Source of the DNA: Lachnospiraceae bacterium
GTDB taxonomy: Bacteria > Bacillota > Clostridia > Lachnospirales > Lachnospiraceae
DNA: 64,000 nt
Assembly: GCA_016283575.1 (NCBI GenBank)
Contig: JAEEND010000011.1
Span: 33,863 to 97,862 of the forward strand
Reading direction: 5' to 3'
Positions 10,186 through 46,057 of the stretch are shown piece by piece. A model generated the notes under the pieces. The model was given only the letters and a program-made list of their open reading frames with translations, was not told the DNA's origin and did no database searches. The position numbers and the translations under genes were made by a program. Each line of letters starts with the position of its first letter. The stretch's first letter is position 1.

Positions 10186-12009
10186 GTGCCAAAGAGAACC
10201 AATCAAGCATACAGAATTTATTTGGTGATAATGATCTTACTCTTGTTAGCAACGATTCTTTTTTCTTTCTTTGAAAGCAAGAGAGAGTATTATACGGAGG
10301 ATCAGCTCTTTCATGATATTGAGAAGGGACTGATAGAAGAAGTCCTTATAACACCAAACAGCGAAAACCAGACAGGTGTGCTGGAAGTTACATTTAAATC
10401 AGGCCAGGAAAAAGATTTATATGTGGTGGACGTTGTGGCCATCGAAGAATCTTTAAAGGCTAAAGACATAAGCGTATTTGTAGGGGATATTCCCAGAGAG
10501 AACTGGTTTTTGGCTTATGTGCTTCCCGTGCTTGTAGTGCTTATAGTAGGCGTATTCCTGTACGTCATGATAATGTCCCAGAGCGCTGCGGGAGCAGGCG
10601 GCGGCCAGAGTGCCCGCATGATGAACTTCGGAAGATCACGTGCCCGCATGTATTCTTCTGAAGAAAATAAGATCAAATTGAGCGATGTAGCCGGCCTTGA
10701 TGAGGAAAAAGAACAGGTTGGCGAAATCATAGATTTCCTTAAGGATCCGAAAAAGTATATTAAAGTCGGAGCAAGAATTCCTAAGGGTATTTTACTTGAG
10801 GGACCTCCCGGAACAGGTAAGACACTTCTTGCCAAGGCAATTGCGGGAGAAGCCAATGTACCTTTCTTCAGCATTTCCGGTTCGGATTTCGTGGAAATGT
10901 TTGTAGGCGTAGGCGCATCAAGAGTAAGAGATTTATTCGCAGATGCCAAAAATAACAGACCCTGTATCGTATTTATCGATGAAATAGATGCAGTTGCAAG
11001 ACGCCGTGGTACCGGTATGGGCGGCGGCCATGATGAAAGAGAACAGACCCTTAACCAGCTCCTTGTTGAAATGGACGGTTTTGGTGAAAACACGGGAATC
11101 ATTGTTCTTGCAGCAACCAACAGAGTTGATATCCTGGATCCCGCAATCTTAAGACCCGGACGTTTCGATCGAAAGGTAGTGGTGGGCGTTCCCGACTATA
11201 AGGGCAGAGGTGAAATCCTTAAGGTACATGCCAAGGATAAGCCCCTTGCCGATGACGTGGATTTAGAGCGTATTTCAAGAACAACGGCAGGCTTTACAGG
11301 CGCAGATCTTGAAAACCTCTTAAATGAAGCAGCGATCAAGGCAGCAAGATCTGATCGTGAATACATAGTGCAGAGCGATATCGAAGAAAGCTTTGTAAAA
11401 GTCGGTATCGGTGTAGAAAAGCGCAGTCGCGTTATTTCAGATAAAGAAAAGAAGATTACGGCGTACCATGAAGCAGGTCATGCGATTTTGTTCCATGTGC
11501 TTCCCGATGTGGGACCTGTGCATTCCGTATCAATTATTCCTACGGGCCAGGGCGCCGCAGGTTATACCATGCCCCTTCCCGAGAAGGACGAAATGTTCTT
11601 AACGAAGGGCAAAATGCTTCAGGATATCATGGTTTCTCTGGGTGGCAGGATCGCTGAAGAGCTTGTATTTGATGATATTACAACAGGTGCTTCCAGTGAT
11701 ATCAAGAAGGCCACCAAGGTAGCAAGAAGAATGGTAACAAAATACGGATTCTCCAAGAATATCGGTGTTATCTGCTACGATGATGATGAAGACGAAGTAT
11801 TTATCGGCCGTGACCTTGCACATGCCAAGAATCATTCCGAAGAAGTATCCGGTGAAATCGACAGAGAAGTTAAATCCATCGTGGACGATTGCTATAAGAA
11901 GGCAACGGATATCATAAAAGAACACAGATCAGTATTAGATGCCTGTGCCGAGCTTTTACTTGAAAAAGAAAAGATCGACAGAGAAGAATTTGAAGCTTTA
12001 TTCGCGTAA
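10186..12009 (+). CDS. ftsH: ATP-dependent zinc metalloprotease FtsH
   Basis: Walker [22 protein letters not shown] region; HEAGH zinc-binding motif. Confidence 0.98.
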
Positions 12010-37204: not shown

Positions 37205-38572
37205 ATGTTAAATAAAAATGATGAGGTAGAACTTAAAATAGAGGACTTATCCAAGGATGGAGAAGGAATCGGCCATACCGCAGACGGTATGACCGTTTTT
37301 GTGATGAACGGAGTTCCGGGCGACGTAGTGCTTGCCCACATCACAAAGGTTAAGAAGACCTGTGCATTTTCTTTTGCAAAAGAAATATTAAAGCCTTCAG
37401 CCGACAGGGTGGAACCGAAGTGCCCCGTTGCAAGACTGTGCGGCGGATGCTCGCTGCAGCACCTTGATTACAAGGCGCAGCTTGGATTTAAAGAAGAATA
37501 TGTGAGAAGCTGCATAGAAAGGATCGGCGGCGTAAAGAATCCTCCCATGGAACCTATTGTGGGGATGGATGAACCTTTCTTTTTCCGTAACAAGGCGCAG
37601 TTCCCGATCGGGATCGACCGCGATGGAAAGGTGGTTATCGGTTTTTACAGACATCACTCCCATGACGTGGTAGATAATGCGACATGTGTGATCCAGGGAG
37701 CGTTTAATGAGAAAATTGTCGATGCCATAAAGCGTTATATCGAAACATACAAGGTATCGGTCTACGATGAAGCTACCGGCAAGGGCTTAATGAGACATGT
37801 TTTTACCCGTTACGGCAAAGCTACCGGGGAAGTGATGGTGTGCCTGGTAATTAACGGAGATACCTTGCCGAAGGAAGACGCCCTTGTGGAGATGCTTTTA
37901 GGGCTTGACCTTGGTGATCTTACCATAAAGAGTATCTGTATTAATATTAATAAAGCTAAAACCAATGTGATTCTAGGGGAGAAGCTTAAGTCTCTTTTCG
38001 GTGATCCGTGGATTGAAGATCTGATCGGAGATGTGCGATACAGGATCTCGCCCCTTTCTTTTTATCAGGTTAATCCGGGGCAGACTAAGAAGCTCTACGA
38101 CATCGCCCTTAACTATGCTGGTCTCACCGGATGCGAGGTGGTGTGGGATCTATATTGCGGAATCGGCACAATATCGCTGTTCCTTGCCCGTGCAGCCAGG
38201 GAAGTTTACGGCGTTGAGATCGTGCCGGAAGCCATTGAAGATGCGAAGCTTAATGCAAAGCTTAACGGTATCGAAAATGCCGAATTCTTCGTGGGGGCCG
38301 CGGAGGACGTGGCTCCGAAGCTTAAAAAGCCCGACGTGATCGTGGTGGATCCGCCTCGCAAGGGTTGCGATGAAAAGCTTCTTGAAACCATTATAAATGT
38401 GGCTCCGAAGCGCCTTGTATACGTGTCATGCGACCCGGCAACTTTGGCTCGCGATCTAAAGATACTTACGGAAAGCGGTTTTGTACTTAAAAAAGCCCGC
38501 CCCGTGGACCAGTTCGGCCACTCAACACATTGTGAAGTGTGCTGCGAACTGGAGAGATTTCGAAAGTCTTAA
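37205..38572 (+). CDS. rlmD: 23S rRNA (uracil-5-)-methyltransferase RlmD-type, with TRAM
   Basis: TRAM domain; VWDLYCGIGTISLFLARAA; VVDPPRKGCDEKLL; VYVSCDPATLARDL. Confidence 0.93.
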   Translation: MLNKNDEVELKIEDLSKDGEGIGHTADGMTVFVMNGVPGDVVLAHITKVKKTCAFSFAKEILKPSADRVEPKCPVARLCGGCSLQHLDYKAQLGFKEEYVRSCIERIGGVKNPPMEPIVGMDEPFFFRNKAQFPIGIDRDGKVVIGFYRHHSHDVVDNATCVIQGAFNEKIVDAIKRYIETYKVSVYDEATGKGLMRHVFTRYGKATGEVMVCLVINGDTLPKEDALVEMLLGLDLGDLTIKSICININKAKTNVILGEKLKSLFGDPWIEDLIGDVRYRISPLSFYQVNPGQTKKLYDIALNYAGLTGCEVVWDLYCGIGTISLFLARAAREVYGVEIVPEAIEDAKLNAKLNGIENAEFFVGAAEDVAPKLKKPDVIVVDPPRKGCDEKLLETIINVAPKRLVYVSCDPATLARDLKILTESGFVLKKARPVDQFGHSTHCEVCCELERFRKS

Positions 38573-38649: not shown

Positions 38650-40572
38650 ATGAAAACAATAGCAATAATCACCGCCCGTGGCGGAAGCAAAAGAATACCG
38701 AGAAAAAACATTAAGGACTTTCTTGGAAAGCCCATAATTGCATATTCCATTGAAGCAGCTCTTGAGTCAGGGGTTTTTGACGAGGTAATGGTGTCAACGG
38801 ACGATGAAGAGATTGCTGACATTGCAAGGAAGTATGGTGCCAAGGTCCCCTTTATGAGAAGCGAAGCCACCAGCAATGATTTTGCATCAACTGACGAAGT
38901 TATTGCTGAGGTTATTGATAGATATTCAGAGCAGGGAAAAGATTTTGATGCTTTATGTTGCATTTATCCCACTGCTCCTTTTATAACCGGGCGGCGTTTA
39001 AAAGAAGCCGTTTCTTTACTTGAAGAACATGAGTCGGTTACTCCCGTAACACAGTTTTCGTATCCTCCGCAAAGAGGATTCATTATAGAAAACGGTGTAT
39101 TACGCCGAAAATATCCGGAATTTGCCACTGCAAGATCTCAGGATTTAGAAAAACTGTATCATGACAGCGGTCAGTTTTATGCATGCAGAGTTGACGCTTT
39201 CCTTCGAGACAGGACTACAGACGTAGATGATATGGCTCCTGTTATTTTGAGCGATGATGAAGTCCAGGATATAGATACCATGGATGACTGGCGCATAGCT
39301 GAGGAAAAGTATCGAAGACTTAAAGCTAAGTCAGAAAGCGGACACCGTGAAAAAACTGAAATGTATGATGACAAAGCTCTTAAGACTCCGTATTACAGGA
39401 TTGACGAATGTGCATTAAATGCGGATATCGCCATGCTTAAGGAGGCGCTTTCTAAGAATTGGAGTAACAGCAATTGTTCCTATTCCGTAAAGACCAATTC
39501 CTTACCATGGCTTCTCACTCATTTTAAAAATAATGGGTTTTACGCGGAAGTTGTTTCAAAAGAAGAGTATGACCTTTCAATAAGATTGGGATTTGATTCC
39601 GATAAAATCATTTATAATGGACCGATAAAAGACCGCTCTGTATTTGAAAGTGTATTGCTGGCAGGTGGCGTATTAAATATGGATTCAAGTTACGAGCCCA
39701 AATGGTTAAAGGAACTTGCGGAAAAATGGCCCGAAAAGGTATTTAATATAGGCATCCGAGTAAACTATAATCTTTCAGAGCTTAACCCGGATGAAGTATT
39801 GGCAGATGATGAGGGAAGCCGTTTTGGTTATTGCTATGAAAACGGTGAACTTGAAAAAGTCATCAATAAGATAAAAACCATTAATAATGTAAACATTGCG
39901 GGACTTCATTTACATTCTTCAACAAAGACCAGATCTGTGGGTGCATACAGGACGCTCAGTAAAGTGGCAGTCATTGTAGCGAAAGAATTTGACCTTGACT
40001 TAAAGTATATCGACATGGGTGGCGGTTATTACGGAGGAGTTCCGGGAAAGCCCACTTTTAAAGATTATATTCCCGCAATGGCCGAAGAATTATCCAAATT
40101 CTTCGATAAGGATAAAACGACTCTGATTGTGGAGCCCGGAGTTTCAATGGTTTCTTCTTCTTTTTCTTTTGTGACAAGTGTTGTGGATACAAAAGATATA
40201 AGAGGGAAGAGATACGTAATCATAGACGGAAGCAGAGTGAACCTGAATCCTCAGGTTACAAGAAGATGGTATCCTCACAAGTTTGAGCTCCTTGAAGATT
40301 CAAACCGACAGAATGGAGTATTGGATAAACAGGAAATATGCGGATCAACTTGCATGGAATACGATCGTTTATTTGAAGCCGAGGGCGAACAGGAGCTGGT
40401 AACAGGGGACCGCGTTATTTTTACAAACGCGGGAGGATATACTGTTTCTCTCACCCCGCTGTTCATTCACTATTTTCCTGCCGTATATGTAAAGAAGCAG
40501 GATGGAACTCTTTTTACGGCCAGAGCCCCCTGGAATAACGATGAATATATAATGAAAAACTTTTTTGAATGA
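38650..40572 (+). CDS. Fusion: CMP-nonulosonate (pseudaminate-type) cytidylyltransferase + PLP-dependent fold-III decarboxylase
   Basis: N-term ~225 aa: IAIITARGGSKRIPRKNIKDFLGKPIIAYSIEAAL (PseF/NeuA). C-term ~410 aa: YSVKTNSLPWLL (PLP Lys), DMGGGYYGGVPG, VEPGVSMVSS, CGSTCMEYDRLF (DapDC/ODC family). ATG at 38650 preceded by GAAAGAAG. Confidence 0.9.
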   Translation: MKTIAIITARGGSKRIPRKNIKDFLGKPIIAYSIEAALESGVFDEVMVSTDDEEIADIARKYGAKVPFMRSEATSNDFASTDEVIAEVIDRYSEQGKDFDALCCIYPTAPFITGRRLKEAVSLLEEHESVTPVTQFSYPPQRGFIIENGVLRRKYPEFATARSQDLEKLYHDSGQFYACRVDAFLRDRTTDVDDMAPVILSDDEVQDIDTMDDWRIAEEKYRRLKAKSESGHREKTEMYDDKALKTPYYRIDECALNADIAMLKEALSKNWSNSNCSYSVKTNSLPWLLTHFKNNGFYAEVVSKEEYDLSIRLGFDSDKIIYNGPIKDRSVFESVLLAGGVLNMDSSYEPKWLKELAEKWPEKVFNIGIRVNYNLSELNPDEVLADDEGSRFGYCYENGELEKVINKIKTINNVNIAGLHLHSSTKTRSVGAYRTLSKVAVIVAKEFDLDLKYIDMGGGYYGGVPGKPTFKDYIPAMAEELSKFFDKDKTTLIVEPGVSMVSSSFSFVTSVVDTKDIRGKRYVIIDGSRVNLNPQVTRRWYPHKFELLEDSNRQNGVLDKQEICGSTCMEYDRLFEAEGEQELVTGDRVIFTNAGGYTVSLTPLFIHYFPAVYVKKQDGTLFTARAPWNNDEYIMKNFFE

Positions 40573-40581
40573 GGAAAAAAT

Positions 40582-41649
40582 ATGTCCGATAATTGGATGA
40601 GTAAAAGAATTAAATTGGCAGATCACTGGATAAGTAACAATGATCCAGTGTATATCGTAGCTGAGTTATCTGCCAACCATTTACAGGATTATAATAGGGC
40701 GGTAGAAATAATACATGCCGCTAAAGAAGCAGGAGTAGATGCGGTTAAGTTACAGACCTACACTCCGGACACTATCACCCTTAACTCAACAAAAGAATAT
40801 TTTACAATTACCGGCGGAACGATTTGGGATGGCACAACTCTTTATAAGCTTTACGAAGAGGCCTACACTCCTTGGGATTGGCAGCCTAAGCTGTGTGAAT
40901 TGGCAAACAGTCTTGGACTTGATTGCTTTTCATCACCCTTTGATGACACTGCCGTACGCTTCATGCAAGACATGAACATGCCGGCATATAAGATTGCGTC
41001 TTATGAAATAACCGATGTACCCCTTATAAGAAAATGCGCGGCAACCGGAAAGCCGGTGATCCTGGCAACAGGAGTTGCCCGTGAGGATGATATCAGGAAT
41101 GCAATTGAAGCATGTAAAAAAGAAAACAATAATCAGGTGATTTTGTTAAAATGTGTTTCTGCTTATCCTACGCCATATGAAGACGTAAATTTAAATATGA
41201 TTCCCACATTAGCCAAAGAATATGGATGTATCATGGGCTTATCCGACCACACCATGGGAACTGCGGTAGCAGTTGCTTCTGTTGCTTTGGGGGCAAGAAT
41301 GATAGAAAAGCACATTACGTTAAAGAGATCCGACGGCGGACCCGATGGCGCATTTTCCATGGAGCCCGATGAGTTTAAAGAATTGGTGAAGAACGTTCGA
41401 ATTGTGGAGAAGGCTTTGGGAAAGTCGGAATACAGTCTTACACCTGTCCAGGAAATTGAGCGCGAAGGTGCCAGATCTCTCTTTATAGTACAGGATATAA
41501 AAAAGGGTGAAGTCCTTACGGCCGAAAACATAAGATCGATTCGACCCGGAATCGGACTTCCTCCCATTGAATACGATAACGTAATTGGAAAAACAGCCCT
41601 TAAGGATTTGGAAAAAGGAGACCCTCTTACCAAAGATGATTTTAGATAA
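40582..41649 (+). CDS. pseI: Pseudaminic acid synthase
   Basis: IVAELSANHLQDYNRAVEIIHAAKEAGVDAVKLQTYTPDTIT..GGTIWDGTTLYKLYEEAYTPW; C-terminal SAF domain. Confidence 0.93.
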   Translation: MSDNWMSKRIKLADHWISNNDPVYIVAELSANHLQDYNRAVEIIHAAKEAGVDAVKLQTYTPDTITLNSTKEYFTITGGTIWDGTTLYKLYEEAYTPWDWQPKLCELANSLGLDCFSSPFDDTAVRFMQDMNMPAYKIASYEITDVPLIRKCAATGKPVILATGVAREDDIRNAIEACKKENNNQVILLKCVSAYPTPYEDVNLNMIPTLAKEYGCIMGLSDHTMGTAVAVASVALGARMIEKHITLKRSDGGPDGAFSMEPDEFKELVKNVRIVEKALGKSEYSLTPVQEIEREGARSLFIVQDIKKGEVLTAENIRSIRPGIGLPPIEYDNVIGKTALKDLEKGDPLTKDDFR

Positions 41650-41661
41650 TCGGGAGCGAAG

Positions 41662-42729
41662 ATGCCAGAAGAAAAAATATGGATTAGAGCAGACGGAAAT
41701 GAAAATATAGCTACAGGCCATATACGGCGTTGCTGCACCATTGCAACAGAGCTTAAGAGAATGGGCGCAGAAGTTGTTTTTGTTCTTTCAGATAAGAAAA
41801 GCGAAAAAGTATTAAAATCCATTTCGGGAAATGAGTTTTCGGCAATTATTCTCGATACGGATTACCAAAATATGTTATCGGAAGAAAAGACTCTGAGGGC
41901 GCTGTTACTTAGTGAGAAACCGGCATTTTTATTAATTGACTCCTATGCCGTGGAGAAAGATTACTTCTCTTTTTTAAAATCTTTTATTTCCGAGAATTTA
42001 TTGGAAACAAAGCTTGGATACATAGACGATATTTATAAATTTGATTACCCTGTTGAAGTGGTAATAAACTATGACTTAAAGATCCCCGATAACTTCTATT
42101 CCGCACCATGCCGGTTACTGGGACCCGGATATACACCAATCAGAGGTCAGTTTGTTACCGGTGAGAAGACAATCAAAGATAAGGCAGAGACAATTCTTGT
42201 TACATCGGGAGGAACTGACGAAAAGCGAGTTCTTTCAAATCTTATGGCAGATATCTTTAGCCCTGTATTTAAGAATGAGCTTTCCAAAAAGAAATTCCGT
42301 GTTGTTTTAGGCCCTTTGTTCGACGAAGATTACAAGAAGTTTCTAAGATTATATGCCTTAAAAAATGAAAACGTGGAAATGTTTGATAATATCACGGATT
42401 TAAGTGATTTGATGAAGGAAGCTGATTTAGCGATTTCGGCAGCAGGTACAACCTTGTACGAATTATGCGCTTCCGGAGTGCCCACCATTGCATACAGTAT
42501 TGCCGAGAATCAGCGTATTTTTGTTAAGGATTTTGAAAAAGAAGAGATAGTCAAATATTCCGGTGATGCAGAAGATGTGCTTGAACTGTCAGAGAATCTT
42601 CAGAGAGAATGCATAAATCTTATAGAAGATAAGAACGCAAGGCAGAAAATGTCAAAAAAGGGTCAGTCCTTGATTGACGGAAAAGGCGCCACACGAATCG
42701 CAGAAGCTATCATGAAAACCATAGGATAG
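41662..42729 (+). CDS. pseG: PseG-like nucleotide-sugar hydrolase (UDP-2,4-diacetamido-2,4,6-trideoxy-altropyranose hydrolase)
   Basis: IWIRADGNENIATGHIRRCCTIATEL; ILVTSGGTDEKRVL; ISAAGTTLYELCASGVPTIAYSIAENQ. Confidence 0.87.
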   Translation: MPEEKIWIRADGNENIATGHIRRCCTIATELKRMGAEVVFVLSDKKSEKVLKSISGNEFSAIILDTDYQNMLSEEKTLRALLLSEKPAFLLIDSYAVEKDYFSFLKSFISENLLETKLGYIDDIYKFDYPVEVVINYDLKIPDNFYSAPCRLLGPGYTPIRGQFVTGEKTIKDKAETILVTSGGTDEKRVLSNLMADIFSPVFKNELSKKKFRVVLGPLFDEDYKKFLRLYALKNENVEMFDNITDLSDLMKEADLAISAAGTTLYELCASGVPTIAYSIAENQRIFVKDFEKEEIVKYSGDAEDVLELSENLQRECINLIEDKNARQKMSKKGQSLIDGKGATRIAEAIMKTIG

Positions 42730-42732
42730 AGC

Positions 42733-43800
42733 ATGAAGGACAGAATATACGTATGCCACACTTTTTACCATGTATATGTGGCCTGTTTAAAAGAGTTTAA
42801 ATTTAACGACGGAAAAGAAGCTACCTTGGTACTTTCGAAAATGTCCAATAATTTCGGGAAAATGGTGGAGAGAGCCCAAAAGAGCACTATTTTTTCCGAA
42901 GTTTTTGAGTATGATGAAAAGAAAGATACCTTCTTCCCGGAGCTTACTTCGCTTCGCACCGATTCCGGCAATATTGTGATTAACATGATAAAAAGAATCA
43001 TCTTTTGCAGGAAGTTCGGTAAATTGCAGGAAGAATATATTCCCGTAGATTTTACCGGATATAAAGATATTTATGTTTTCTGTGATTCAGATCCTGTTGG
43101 ATATTATCTTAACTATAAAAAGATTAAGTATCACGCTTTGGAAGACGGGTTAGATTGCATCAGATACTATGACACAGCCAGATATGATAACCGAGGACAT
43201 TTTAAGATTAAGGAGTGGATGGCTTCCAAGGGTCTTATTCATATACAGAACGGCTATGATAAGTATTGCATAGACATGGAAGTTAACAATATTTCCGTGC
43301 TGGATTATCCCTGTAAAAAATATGTTGAGCTTCCCAGAAAGCAGTTAACGGAACGCCTTACACCCGATGAAAAAGAAAAGTTGCTGGCTCTTTTTGTTGA
43401 TGATGTAAATGAGCTAAAGAAAAAGGGCAGCAGTGATAAAAAAGCTTTACTGGTTCTCTCTGAACCATTATGTGATTTAGATACCAGAGTTCAGATTTTT
43501 GAAGATATCATCAATACATACTCCACCATTGATGGTGAAGATGCAGTTGTATTTATAAAGCAGCACCCCAGAGATCTACTGGATTATACCAAGTTTTTCC
43601 CTGATGCGGTTCTTTTGGACGGAAGCTTCCCAATGGAAATGCTGAACTTCATAGAGGGCATCAGATTTAACCGAGTTGTTTCAGTATATACCGTTACCGA
43701 TTCAATTCAATTTGCGGACGAAAAGATATATCTCGGCGACGACTTTATGGATAAATACGAAGAACCATCTGTTCACAGACAGAACGAAGCAATAAAGTAA
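42733..43800 (+). CDS. GT52 / polysialyltransferase-like glycosyltransferase
   Basis: YVCHTFYHVYVACLK N-terminus, HALEDGLDCIRYY, VFIKQHPRDLLDYTKFFP..; position in nonulosonate cluster. Confidence 0.6.
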   Translation: MKDRIYVCHTFYHVYVACLKEFKFNDGKEATLVLSKMSNNFGKMVERAQKSTIFSEVFEYDEKKDTFFPELTSLRTDSGNIVINMIKRIIFCRKFGKLQEEYIPVDFTGYKDIYVFCDSDPVGYYLNYKKIKYHALEDGLDCIRYYDTARYDNRGHFKIKEWMASKGLIHIQNGYDKYCIDMEVNNISVLDYPCKKYVELPRKQLTERLTPDEKEKLLALFVDDVNELKKKGSSDKKALLVLSEPLCDLDTRVQIFEDIINTYSTIDGEDAVVFIKQHPRDLLDYTKFFPDAVLLDGSFPMEMLNFIEGIRFNRVVSVYTVTDSIQFADEKIYLGDDFMDKYEEPSVHRQNEAIK

Positions 43801-43818: not shown

Positions 43819-45006
43819 ATGAACGCATTGGTAATCGGTGCAAACGAAGATTCAATTGAATCAATGCGAATAGCAAGAAAATATGGATACACCATATATG
43901 CAATAGATGGAAATAAAGATGCGAAGGGTTTGGAAGCCGCAGACTTTTCATATGTTGTTGATATAAACAATCTGGATAAAGTATTTGAAATTACGGATAA
44001 AATAAAGGCTGATATAGTTCTTCCTGCCCCCATCGGACATTGTCTTACAACGGTAGGTGCTGTTAATGACAGATATAATCTGCCGGGAGTCGGTGAAAAG
44101 AGTGCCAAGCTATGTACGGATAAGTATTTGTTTAATGAGGTTCTTGAGAAAAGCTCACTTAGGGACGCAAGCACATTCTTGATAAATAAAGGCGATAATG
44201 TAAAAGAGGCCGTGGAAAGCATAGATGTGTTGCCGGTTATCGTAAAGCCCAGAACCGGTTCCGGCAGCCGCGGAATTAAGATAATGAGTTCCAAAAAAGA
44301 TTTACGCGAATGGGCCGAAAACTACGATGTTGCCGATGAAGATTATACGGTGGAACGTTTTGTATCCGGTGATGAGTATGGAATTGACGGCGCATTCGCA
44401 GACGGCAAGTTCTATTTGGTTTTACTCAGAAAGAAAATAAACACGCCTCCTCCTTACAGACAGTGTGTGGGATATATTTCCGTTAAGCCGGAAGAAGAGC
44501 AGGGTTTTTACGATAAATGCGTAACTCTCATGAGTGAGATAGGCAAAAGCCTGGGATTTATCAACTGTGTTGTTCATGTTGATGTTATAAAGTCAGAAGG
44601 CGATACACCATTTGTAATTGAAACTTCTGCACGTCCATCGGGACATAATCTGTCCAATTTCTTTACACCAAAGACTACAGGCATCTTTTTGGTGGAAGAA
44701 TTTATAAAAAGCTCTATGGGAAGACCCTTTTCATATGTGCCGACTCATACAGAGAAGATGATGATAAGATTCTTTGATCTTCAAGAAGGAATTGTAGAGA
44801 AGATTCCCGAAAAGGAAGACATGGAAAGAATAAATGGAATACTGGATTACAATTGTAATATTAAAGTTGGTGACAGCTTAAAGACTGTTACAGACGGTGC
44901 ATCCGTCATGGGCAGAGGTTATTATTTGATTAAAGCTGACACTGAACAGGAATTATTGGATATTGCTTCAGAAGTAAGAAACAAATTTATAATAAACAGT
45001 CGTTAG
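43819..45006 (+). CDS. ATP-grasp domain protein
   Basis: PVIVKPRTGSGSRGIKIMSSKKDL, VERFVSGDEYGIDGAF, FVIETSARPSGHNLSNFF. Confidence 0.88.
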   Translation: MNALVIGANEDSIESMRIARKYGYTIYAIDGNKDAKGLEAADFSYVVDINNLDKVFEITDKIKADIVLPAPIGHCLTTVGAVNDRYNLPGVGEKSAKLCTDKYLFNEVLEKSSLRDASTFLINKGDNVKEAVESIDVLPVIVKPRTGSGSRGIKIMSSKKDLREWAENYDVADEDYTVERFVSGDEYGIDGAFADGKFYLVLLRKKINTPPPYRQCVGYISVKPEEEQGFYDKCVTLMSEIGKSLGFINCVVHVDVIKSEGDTPFVIETSARPSGHNLSNFFTPKTTGIFLVEEFIKSSMGRPFSYVPTHTEKMMIRFFDLQEGIVEKIPEKEDMERINGILDYNCNIKVGDSLKTVTDGASVMGRGYYLIKADTEQELLDIASEVRNKFIINSR

Positions 45007-45028
45007 TTATTAACTAAGGGTGCCCTTC

Positions 45029-46057
45029 ATGAAACTTTCCATCATCGTTCCGGTTTACAACATGGCCTCCGACAATAAGCTTTCTTTTTGCATGGATTCG
45101 CTTGTAAACCAGACAATAAAAGATTATGAAATAATAGCCGTTGATGATGCTTCTACGGACGATTCTCTTCACGTTCTTGAGGGATTTAAGGAAAAGTATC
45201 CCGACAAGGTGCGCATTATATCGTCCAAAGAAAACCTTCGCCAGGGCGGAGCTAGAAACCTCGGTATCAAAGAAGCAACAGGCGAGTGGATCGGATTTAT
45301 CGATTCCGATGACTGGATCACACCGGACTATTATGAGAAATTAATAAAAAAAGGTGAAGAAACCGGAGCTGACGTGGTGGGCTGCGGTTATTCTGTTGTG
45401 GGAGAACACACATTTAATATCGGCGAGGAGATTCATGATATTTCTCCCGATCAGGTGGGAGTGCTTACTTCTGAGATGCGCCATAGATTTTTAAGTAAAA
45501 ACGGCAGCATGGTCATGAAGGTTTATAAAGCAGAACTCATAAAAGAAAATAACCTTTCTTTTCCAGAAAAGATTTTTTACGAAGACAATTGTGCGGGACC
45601 TGTATGGGCAATGTATTTTAAACACTTTGAATATGTGCGTGAACCGTTGTATTATTATTATCAACATGACACATCCACTGTTCATACAATCACCGAGGAG
45701 AGGTGTTGTGACAGGCTCAAGGTATCTATGATGATGCTTTCTGAGATGAAGGAACGCGGTTTCTTCGAAGAATTTAAGACAGAAATAGAGAGTAACTTTA
45801 CTACCACTTATTTCGTGAATACGCTGTTTTCTTATATGCGGATTCCTCATAAAAAGCTTTCTTTTGTAAGAAACATGAAGAAAACCATGGTAAAAGAATT
45901 TCCTGCATTCCGTGAGAATCCCTATTACGGAACCCATATGGATGCGGAGCAAAAGAAATACGTGGATATACTTATGAAGAATTCCCTTCGGTTTTTCATC
46001 CAATACTCCCTTCTTTGGGCCTACCGTGACTTTAAAGCTTCTAAAAGTAAGAAATAG
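45029..46057 (+). CDS. Glycosyltransferase family 2
   Basis: KLSIIVPVYNMASDNKLSFCMDSLVNQTIKDYEIIAVDDASTDDS..GFIDSDDWITPDYYEKL. Confidence 0.93.
   Translation: MKLSIIVPVYNMASDNKLSFCMDSLVNQTIKDYEIIAVDDASTDDSLHVLEGFKEKYPDKVRIISSKENLRQGGARNLGIKEATGEWIGFIDSDDWITPDYYEKLIKKGEETGADVVGCGYSVVGEHTFNIGEEIHDISPDQVGVLTSEMRHRFLSKNGSMVMKVYKAELIKENNLSFPEKIFYEDNCAGPVWAMYFKHFEYVREPLYYYYQHDTSTVHTITEERCCDRLKVSMMMLSEMKERGFFEEFKTEIESNFTTTYFVNTLFSYMRIPHKKLSFVRNMKKTMVKEFPAFRENPYYGTHMDAEQKKYVDILMKNSLRFFIQYSLLWAYRDFKASKSKK

Follow-up and report, generated by a model that had tools for sequence, protein, structure and literature searches.

Fusion of a CMP-pseudaminic acid synthetase with a fold III decarboxylase in Lachnospiraceae: evidence for a decarboxylase and ATP-grasp module in place of PseH

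The stretch of DNA analysed here, referred to as the window, comprises 64,000 nucleotides of a Lachnospiraceae genome (assembly GCA_016283575.1, contig JAEEND010000011.1). It harbors a compact same-strand cassette with intergenic gaps of 3-18 bases, consisting of a gene fusion of PseF and a decarboxylase followed by genes for PseI, PseG, a probable glycosyltransferase (GTx), an ATP-grasp ligase, and a GT2 glycosyltransferase. Judging from the translations, a putative RumA gene (37205-38572) and a putative Mrp antiporter operon flank the cassette. Its features are:

38650..39333, + strand: PseF domain of the fusion (aa 1-228), assigned to CMP-pseudaminic acid synthetases; TIGR03584; 44-46% identity to 9ftb/9ftc
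39334..39363, + strand: linker (aa 229-238); sequence and length vary among the aligned fusions
39364..40569, + strand: alanine-racemase-fold (fold III) PLP decarboxylase domain (aa 239-640), assigned by PF02784 and PF00278
39490..39492, + strand: K281, PLP Schiff-base lysine in YSVKTN; invariant in 26 family members
40351..40356, + strand: C568-M569, catalytic Cys followed by Met in place of Asp/Glu; CME invariant in 26 members
40582..41649, + strand: PseI, pseudaminic acid synthase; TIGR03586, 479.9 bits (cut-off 340.25)
41662..42729, + strand: PseG, UDP-sugar hydrolase; TIGR03590, 164.1 bits (cut-off 153.55)
42733..43800, + strand: GTx, probable CMP-nonulosonate-using glycosyltransferase; fold match, without Pfam match
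43819..45006, + strand: ATP-grasp carboxylate-amine ligase, proposed sugar-amine acylator; PF13535, 47 bits (cut-off 27); LAL_C2, 30.6 bits (cut-off 29.4)
45020..46057, + strand: GT2 glycosyltransferase of the cassette; PF00535, 126.4 bits

The fusion gene (38650-40572, + strand) is a single unbroken frame of 640 amino acids from the ATG at 38650 to the stop at 40572. The mechanically called reading frame starts at a GTG (38539), and the homologue alignments all begin at the ATG. M238, located in the linker, was dismissed as an internal start because this methionine is absent from other fusions. A first-pass annotation had described one 640-aa frame combining a PseF-type cytidylyltransferase with a decarboxylase, and profile searches bore this out with three models above cut-off: TIGR03584 (PseF) at amino acids 4-222 (291.8 bits, cut-off 205.7), Orn_Arg_deC_N (PF02784) at 265-501 (93.7 bits, cut-off 23.4), and Orn_DAP_Arg_deC (PF00278) at 455-595 (32.8 bits, cut-off 23). 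The nearest solved relative of the N-terminal half is the CMP-Pse5Ac7Ac synthetase of A. caviae (9ftb). Compared with this enzyme (9ftb/9ftc) the domain is complete at the identity given above; by family membership the PseF half is thus assigned as a full CMP-pseudaminic acid synthetase. Known PseF proteins are stand-alone enzymes of about 230 amino acids, whereas the PseF of the window carries a decarboxylase. For the C-terminal half, the nearest solved relative is the N-citrylornithine decarboxylase FigC (7kh2; 121.8 bits by phmmer). A Foldseek search with the predicted fusion structure also matched 7kh2 (E 8.5e-14), although this model is of low confidence (mean pLDDT 60.6, C-terminal half poor) and its Foldseek matches only confirm the families. 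Since the C-terminal half passes the Pfam decarboxylase models and falls outside all NCBIfam equivalogs, it is classified, on sequence grounds, as a full fold III decarboxylase with undefined specificity that comes nearest to N-citrylornithine decarboxylase.

The same fusion occurs at 67-72% identity in many genomes of Butyrivibrio and related Lachnospiraceae. A genome scan yielded six further full fusions (67-70% identity), including those of Butyrivibrio sp. X503 and INlla21, which are RefSeq strain records, as well as several MAGs, and surveys of the family and order added ten genomes, all belonging to a single further genus of this family. The window stems from a 31-contig draft genome, which could raise the suspicion of a frameshift or an assembly artefact joining two genes; the phyletic survey proposed with the first annotation removes it, because the fusion is repeated in independent genomes, RefSeq strain records among them, and we regard an artefact as practically excluded. 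A tree calculated for 27 decarboxylases groups all fused ones in a single clade (100/99), with six unfused decarboxylases from Pse clusters beside it, and both groups together, termed class A, form a clade as well (100/100). The PseF-decarboxylase fusion has a single origin. Across seven aligned fusions the key blocks of the PseF half and the catalytic residues of both halves are invariant, whereas the linker is not.

All decarboxylase motifs named in the first annotation were recovered, i.e. K281 in YSVKTN, GGGY at 457-460, EPG at 495-497, and C568 in STCMEYD, with the correction that the family reads EPGV and is devoid of the Arg which follows EPG in LysA and FigC. In FigC, this position is described as touching the PLP phosphate via its backbone amide (PMC7857480). 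K281, the stacking His H422, G457-G458, E495-G497, and C568 are conserved in 26 members and G459 in all of class A, which is consistent with the earlier impression of a functional enzyme. The catalytic loop reads C-M-E in 26/26 aligned members and C-I-E in one more distant relative (L084). The Met thus takes the place where diamine and DAP decarboxylases carry an acid; in ODC, ADC, and DAPDC, the Asp after the catalytic Cys binds the side-chain amine of the substrate (PMC7857480). Since Met replaces this distal-amine-binding acid, the free substrates suggested in the first annotation (Lys, Orn, Arg, DAP, and carboxypolyamines) appear less likely, and the Asp typical of ornithine, lysine, and arginine decarboxylases is missing from all 26 aligned members. 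Membership in LysA is likewise not indicated (TIGR01048, 133.1 bits, cut-off 297.9; CMEYD instead of CESGD), and the LysA-like gene of the same genome (C8:101279-102409) has a CES motif with C-E, not C-M.

The Met after the catalytic Cys is shared with FigC, where it is M355 (PMC7857480), and with FslC. FigC, SbnH, MccE, and BtrK are all decarboxylases of conjugated amino acids (PMC7857480); the clade is rich in enzymes of this kind. The window decarboxylase nevertheless differs from FigC in several respects: the identity is about 21%, the score for the FigC/FslC model NF041039 is far below the cut-off (153.8 versus 500 bits), no citrate ligase lies nearby, and the specificity-helix region contains a class A-only motif, TR[RH]xYPH, where pairwise alignment places T330/Y331 of FigC. 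The invariant Arg of this motif would be compatible with an acidic distal group of the substrate.

A further hint comes from the neighborhood. An ATP-grasp gene is located within 10 kb of the decarboxylase in 8/8 class A Pse loci with shuffled gene order, frequently directly adjacent, and PseH was detected within 8 kb of the decarboxylase in none of these eight clusters. The best PseH-like gene of the window's own genome scores 82.7 bits (cut-off 93.1) and is found on the same contig at a distance of about 57 kb. Among 76 surveyed PseF genes, seven have a decarboxylase beside them and all seven also an ATP-grasp gene, compared with 3/69 of the PseF genes without decarboxylase (Fisher p 5e-8, from a test which ignores relatedness, applied to related genomes of one family); 13 PseF genes have PseH nearby and neither decarboxylase nor ATP-grasp. 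In six loci (L050, L051, L052, L053, L054, and L059), PseF, decarboxylase, PseI, PseG, PseC, ATP-grasp, GTx, and GT2 are separate genes in differing orders and strands, some cluster genes of L051, L053, and L054 falling outside the fetched stretch. The module of decarboxylase and ATP-grasp ligase, in loci with no PseH nearby, is well supported by comparative genomics. The first annotation was right about the architecture and the residues, and its guess of a nonulosonate decorated with an amino acid-derived group gains support; it had missed the constant ATP-grasp partner (43819-45006), which points to N-acylation of a sugar amine. In G207, G264, and G301, PseH-like GNAT genes do occur 10-13 kb from the cassette. 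They adjoin a second PseC-like aminotransferase and a gene for a protein of about 600 amino acids (L094-L096), and from these neighbors we read them as part of another pathway rather than as the PseH of the cassette, a reading that is unproven.

Other clusters fill the same position differently. L089, from a species of the window's genus, has the arrangement PseF-PseI-formyltransferase-PseG-GTx-GT2 with neither decarboxylase nor ATP-grasp. The best NCBIfam model for its formyltransferase (11011-11613) is a dTDP-4-amino-4,6-dideoxyglucose formyltransferase (84 of the 238 bits of the cut-off). The presence of such a gene in the cluster suggests a 7-N-formyl Pse as product; Pse bearing a 7-formamido group is on record for Pseudoalteromonas distincta in a reference listed in PMC3210612. 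In L011 and L092, a GNAT is found inside the Pse cluster. With formyltransferase, GNAT, and the ATP-grasp and decarboxylase pair filling one slot, the amine acetylated by PseH in the known pathway appears to be served by any of the three. In ATP-grasp loci without decarboxylase, a class III aminotransferase of the acetylornithine/GABA type adjoins the ligase (L085:5250-6470, L086:9107-10351, and L087:1948-3159), which may be the source of a ready-made omega-amino acid.

The sugar itself would be pseudaminic acid or a close isomer. PseC is above cut-off in 11/11 genomes with the fusion. PseB is above cut-off in 5/11 and below in another 5/11, the latter Butyrivibrio-like, and a profile search found none in the window's own genome, so the exact identity of the sugar is unsure.

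A second group of decarboxylases (class B) shows 36-47% identity to that of the window and has a PylC-like ATP-grasp gene adjacent in 10/12 loci. Most of these loci are amino-sugar polysaccharide clusters with a PglC-type sugar transferase and a DegT aminotransferase (LegC/PseC-like), joined in L058, L061, and L063 by a PglF-like dehydratase. In L064 (8958-11042), the class B decarboxylase is fused to a PglC-type Bac_transf domain in a protein of 694 amino acids; according to the tree of 27 decarboxylases, this fusion is independent of that to PseF. In L058, the partner ATP-grasp protein (10583-11596) belongs to PRK12767.1-5 and matches with 307 bits the solved structure 2pn1, which was deposited simply as 'carbamoylphosphate synthase large subunit'.

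Based on these data, the fusion would perform the last steps in the synthesis of CMP-Pse, or of a close isomer, carrying an amino acid-derived acyl residue on the 7-amino group, an interpretation to which we give an even chance. In the proposed pathway, PseC would leave a free 4-amino group on UDP-4-amino-4,6-dideoxy-AltNAc. The ATP-grasp enzyme, replacing the acetylation by PseH, would link the side-chain carboxyl of an amino acid to this amine, leaving the alpha-amino acid end free; gamma-Glu or beta-Asp would be the most probable acyl residue. PseG and PseI would turn the acylated sugar into the nonulosonate. At this stage or at that of the CMP form, the decarboxylase half would split off the alpha-carboxylate as CO2, so that an amide resembling GABA or beta-alanine remains; CMP would be added by the PseF half, and the fusion would couple carboxylate removal to activation. 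Whereas the fusion and its conservation, the partnership with the ATP-grasp gene, the missing PseH nearby, the swap of the acyl slot, and the active-site residues are observed, we infer the amino acid used, the sugar position, and that decarboxylation follows ligation. The ATP-grasp enzyme could also work at another site of the glycan. Since both fusions join the decarboxylase to consumers of the finished sugar (PseF and PglC), action on a sugar-bound group is favored, and the pairing of PRK12767-type ATP-grasp proteins with a decarboxylase suggests sugar aminoacylation. More tentatively, there might be a general ligate-then-decarboxylate N-acylation of bacterial amino sugars, in which a side-chain-linked acidic amino acid is trimmed on the sugar by a dedicated fold III decarboxylase to GABA- or beta-alanine-type amides, with nonulosonates as substrates of class A and bacillosamine-like sugars as those of class B, and in which a positive charge would replace a neutral N-acetyl position; this extension is quite possible, if somewhat less than probable.

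Known systems share parts of this scheme. PseH, which likewise acylates the 4-amino group, would hold the position proposed here for the ligase, but is a GNAT using acetyl-CoA. In butirosin biosynthesis, BtrJ performs the glutamate ligation step, with an acyl carrier protein as acceptor. The resulting conjugate is subsequently decarboxylated by the fold III enzyme BtrK (PMC7857480). In the present case no carrier protein was seen, and a sugar amine is proposed to take its place. Leg5GluNMe7Ac from flagella of C. botulinum is a nonulosonate bearing a glutamyl-type group (PMC13317340), and together with the chemistry it suggests, by analogy, Glu or Asp as acyl donor. It belongs however to the legionaminic series and its carboxylate is retained and N-methylated, while a decarboxylated residue on a pseudaminic acid is proposed here. 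In the flagellin glycan of C. difficile type B, the ATP-grasp protein CDR20291_0245 is required for an amino acid-like decoration (PMC5207246); a nonulosonate pathway and a decarboxylase are absent from the description of this system. The 274-Da Pse of Shewanella was rejected as a model, as this species is without clear PseF, PseG, PseH, and PseI. The literature searched contained nothing useful on aminobutyryl nonulosonates or on BtrJ/BtrK in connection with ATP-grasp.

The main rival to decarboxylation on the sugar is the reversed order with the same final sugar, in which free Glu, Asp, or another amino acid is the substrate of the decarboxylase and the ATP-grasp enzyme then links the omega-amino acid to the sugar amine. 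The frequent adjacency of the two genes is consistent with this, as is the class III aminotransferase in loci devoid of the decarboxylase, which could supply an omega-amino acid; the ligase can evidently function without decarboxylation in L085-L087, and decarboxylation prior to ligation fits these loci too. However, the fusion partners of the decarboxylase are PseF and PglC, no fusion to the ligase was seen, and fold III decarboxylases are known to act on basic amino acids, DAP, and conjugates, so that free Glu or Asp would be a new type of substrate (PMC7857480, PMC8503589). We consider the reversed order unlikely, while giving it real weight.

It is more doubtful still that the decarboxylase yields putrescine, cadaverine, or another free amine, which the ATP-grasp enzyme would couple to a carboxylate of the glycan, e.g. 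C1 of the nonulosonate. ODC, LDC, and ADC are fold III enzymes (PMC8503589) and ATP-grasp proteins of this kind ligate carboxylates to amines (PMC5207246), but the invariant Met at the position of the distal-amine-binding acid (26/26 members), the formyltransferase or GNAT taking the acyl slot in other clusters, and the amino-sugar-making aminotransferases of class B clusters speak against it. Nonulosonate glycans moreover normally keep a free C1 carboxylate. That the fusion is one of chance or convenience, its decarboxylase working in an unconnected pathway, for instance lysine biosynthesis, is very improbable: the domain is LysA-like at 133 bits to TIGR01048, yet this lies far under the lysA cut-off of 297.9, the genome contains the separate LysA-like gene mentioned above, and unfused orthologues remain in Pse clusters.

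Every component of the preferred scheme of ligation followed by decarboxylation stems from a known family. In line with the first annotation, which knew of no enzyme with this architecture, no published account of a PseF-decarboxylase fusion was found in the literature searched, nor one of an ATP-grasp ligase paired with a fold III decarboxylase replacing PseH, most subscription papers being outside the reach of the search. If correct, the scheme would represent a third means, beside acetyl-CoA- and formyl-folate-dependent transferases, of filling the pseudaminic acid amine. It would also assign a role to this decarboxylase clade and to the PRK12767-type ATP-grasp proteins (2pn1), both of them uncharacterised so far, and with a free amine on Pse, flagella or surface polysaccharides of gut and rumen bacteria would differ in charge.

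With regard to the glycan target, the window's genome contains 12 flagellin-domain genes, and since 11 of these (C24:704-20868) share the contig with PseC, flagellin is one possible target of the decorated Pse; flagellar glycosylation has been reported in Butyrivibrio (PMC13317340). Next to the Butyrivibrio cassettes, genes for an ABC transporter and EpsG-like proteins suggest surface polysaccharide as another candidate. Both glycosyltransferases of the cassette have relatives in other Pse clusters, GT2 at 45-76% and GTx at 58-78% in most clusters containing the decarboxylase. A Pfam search with GTx gave zero matches. Its AF2 model (pLDDT 67.6) retrieved the bacterial polysialyltransferase 5wcn as top Foldseek match (E 1.1e-7), followed by GT-B sialyltransferases; because these best fold matches use CMP-sugars, GTx is a plausible CMP-Pse transferase.

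Besides, some further observations were made. The polysialyltransferase-like predicted fold of GTx is that of a protein conserved in many Lachnospiraceae Pse clusters. PseF is also found in other combinations: in another Lachnospiraceae genome it is fused to PseI in one protein of 589 amino acids (L085:8809-10578), and a 991-aa reading frame joins a PseG-like domain to a PseF domain (L093:6244-9219).
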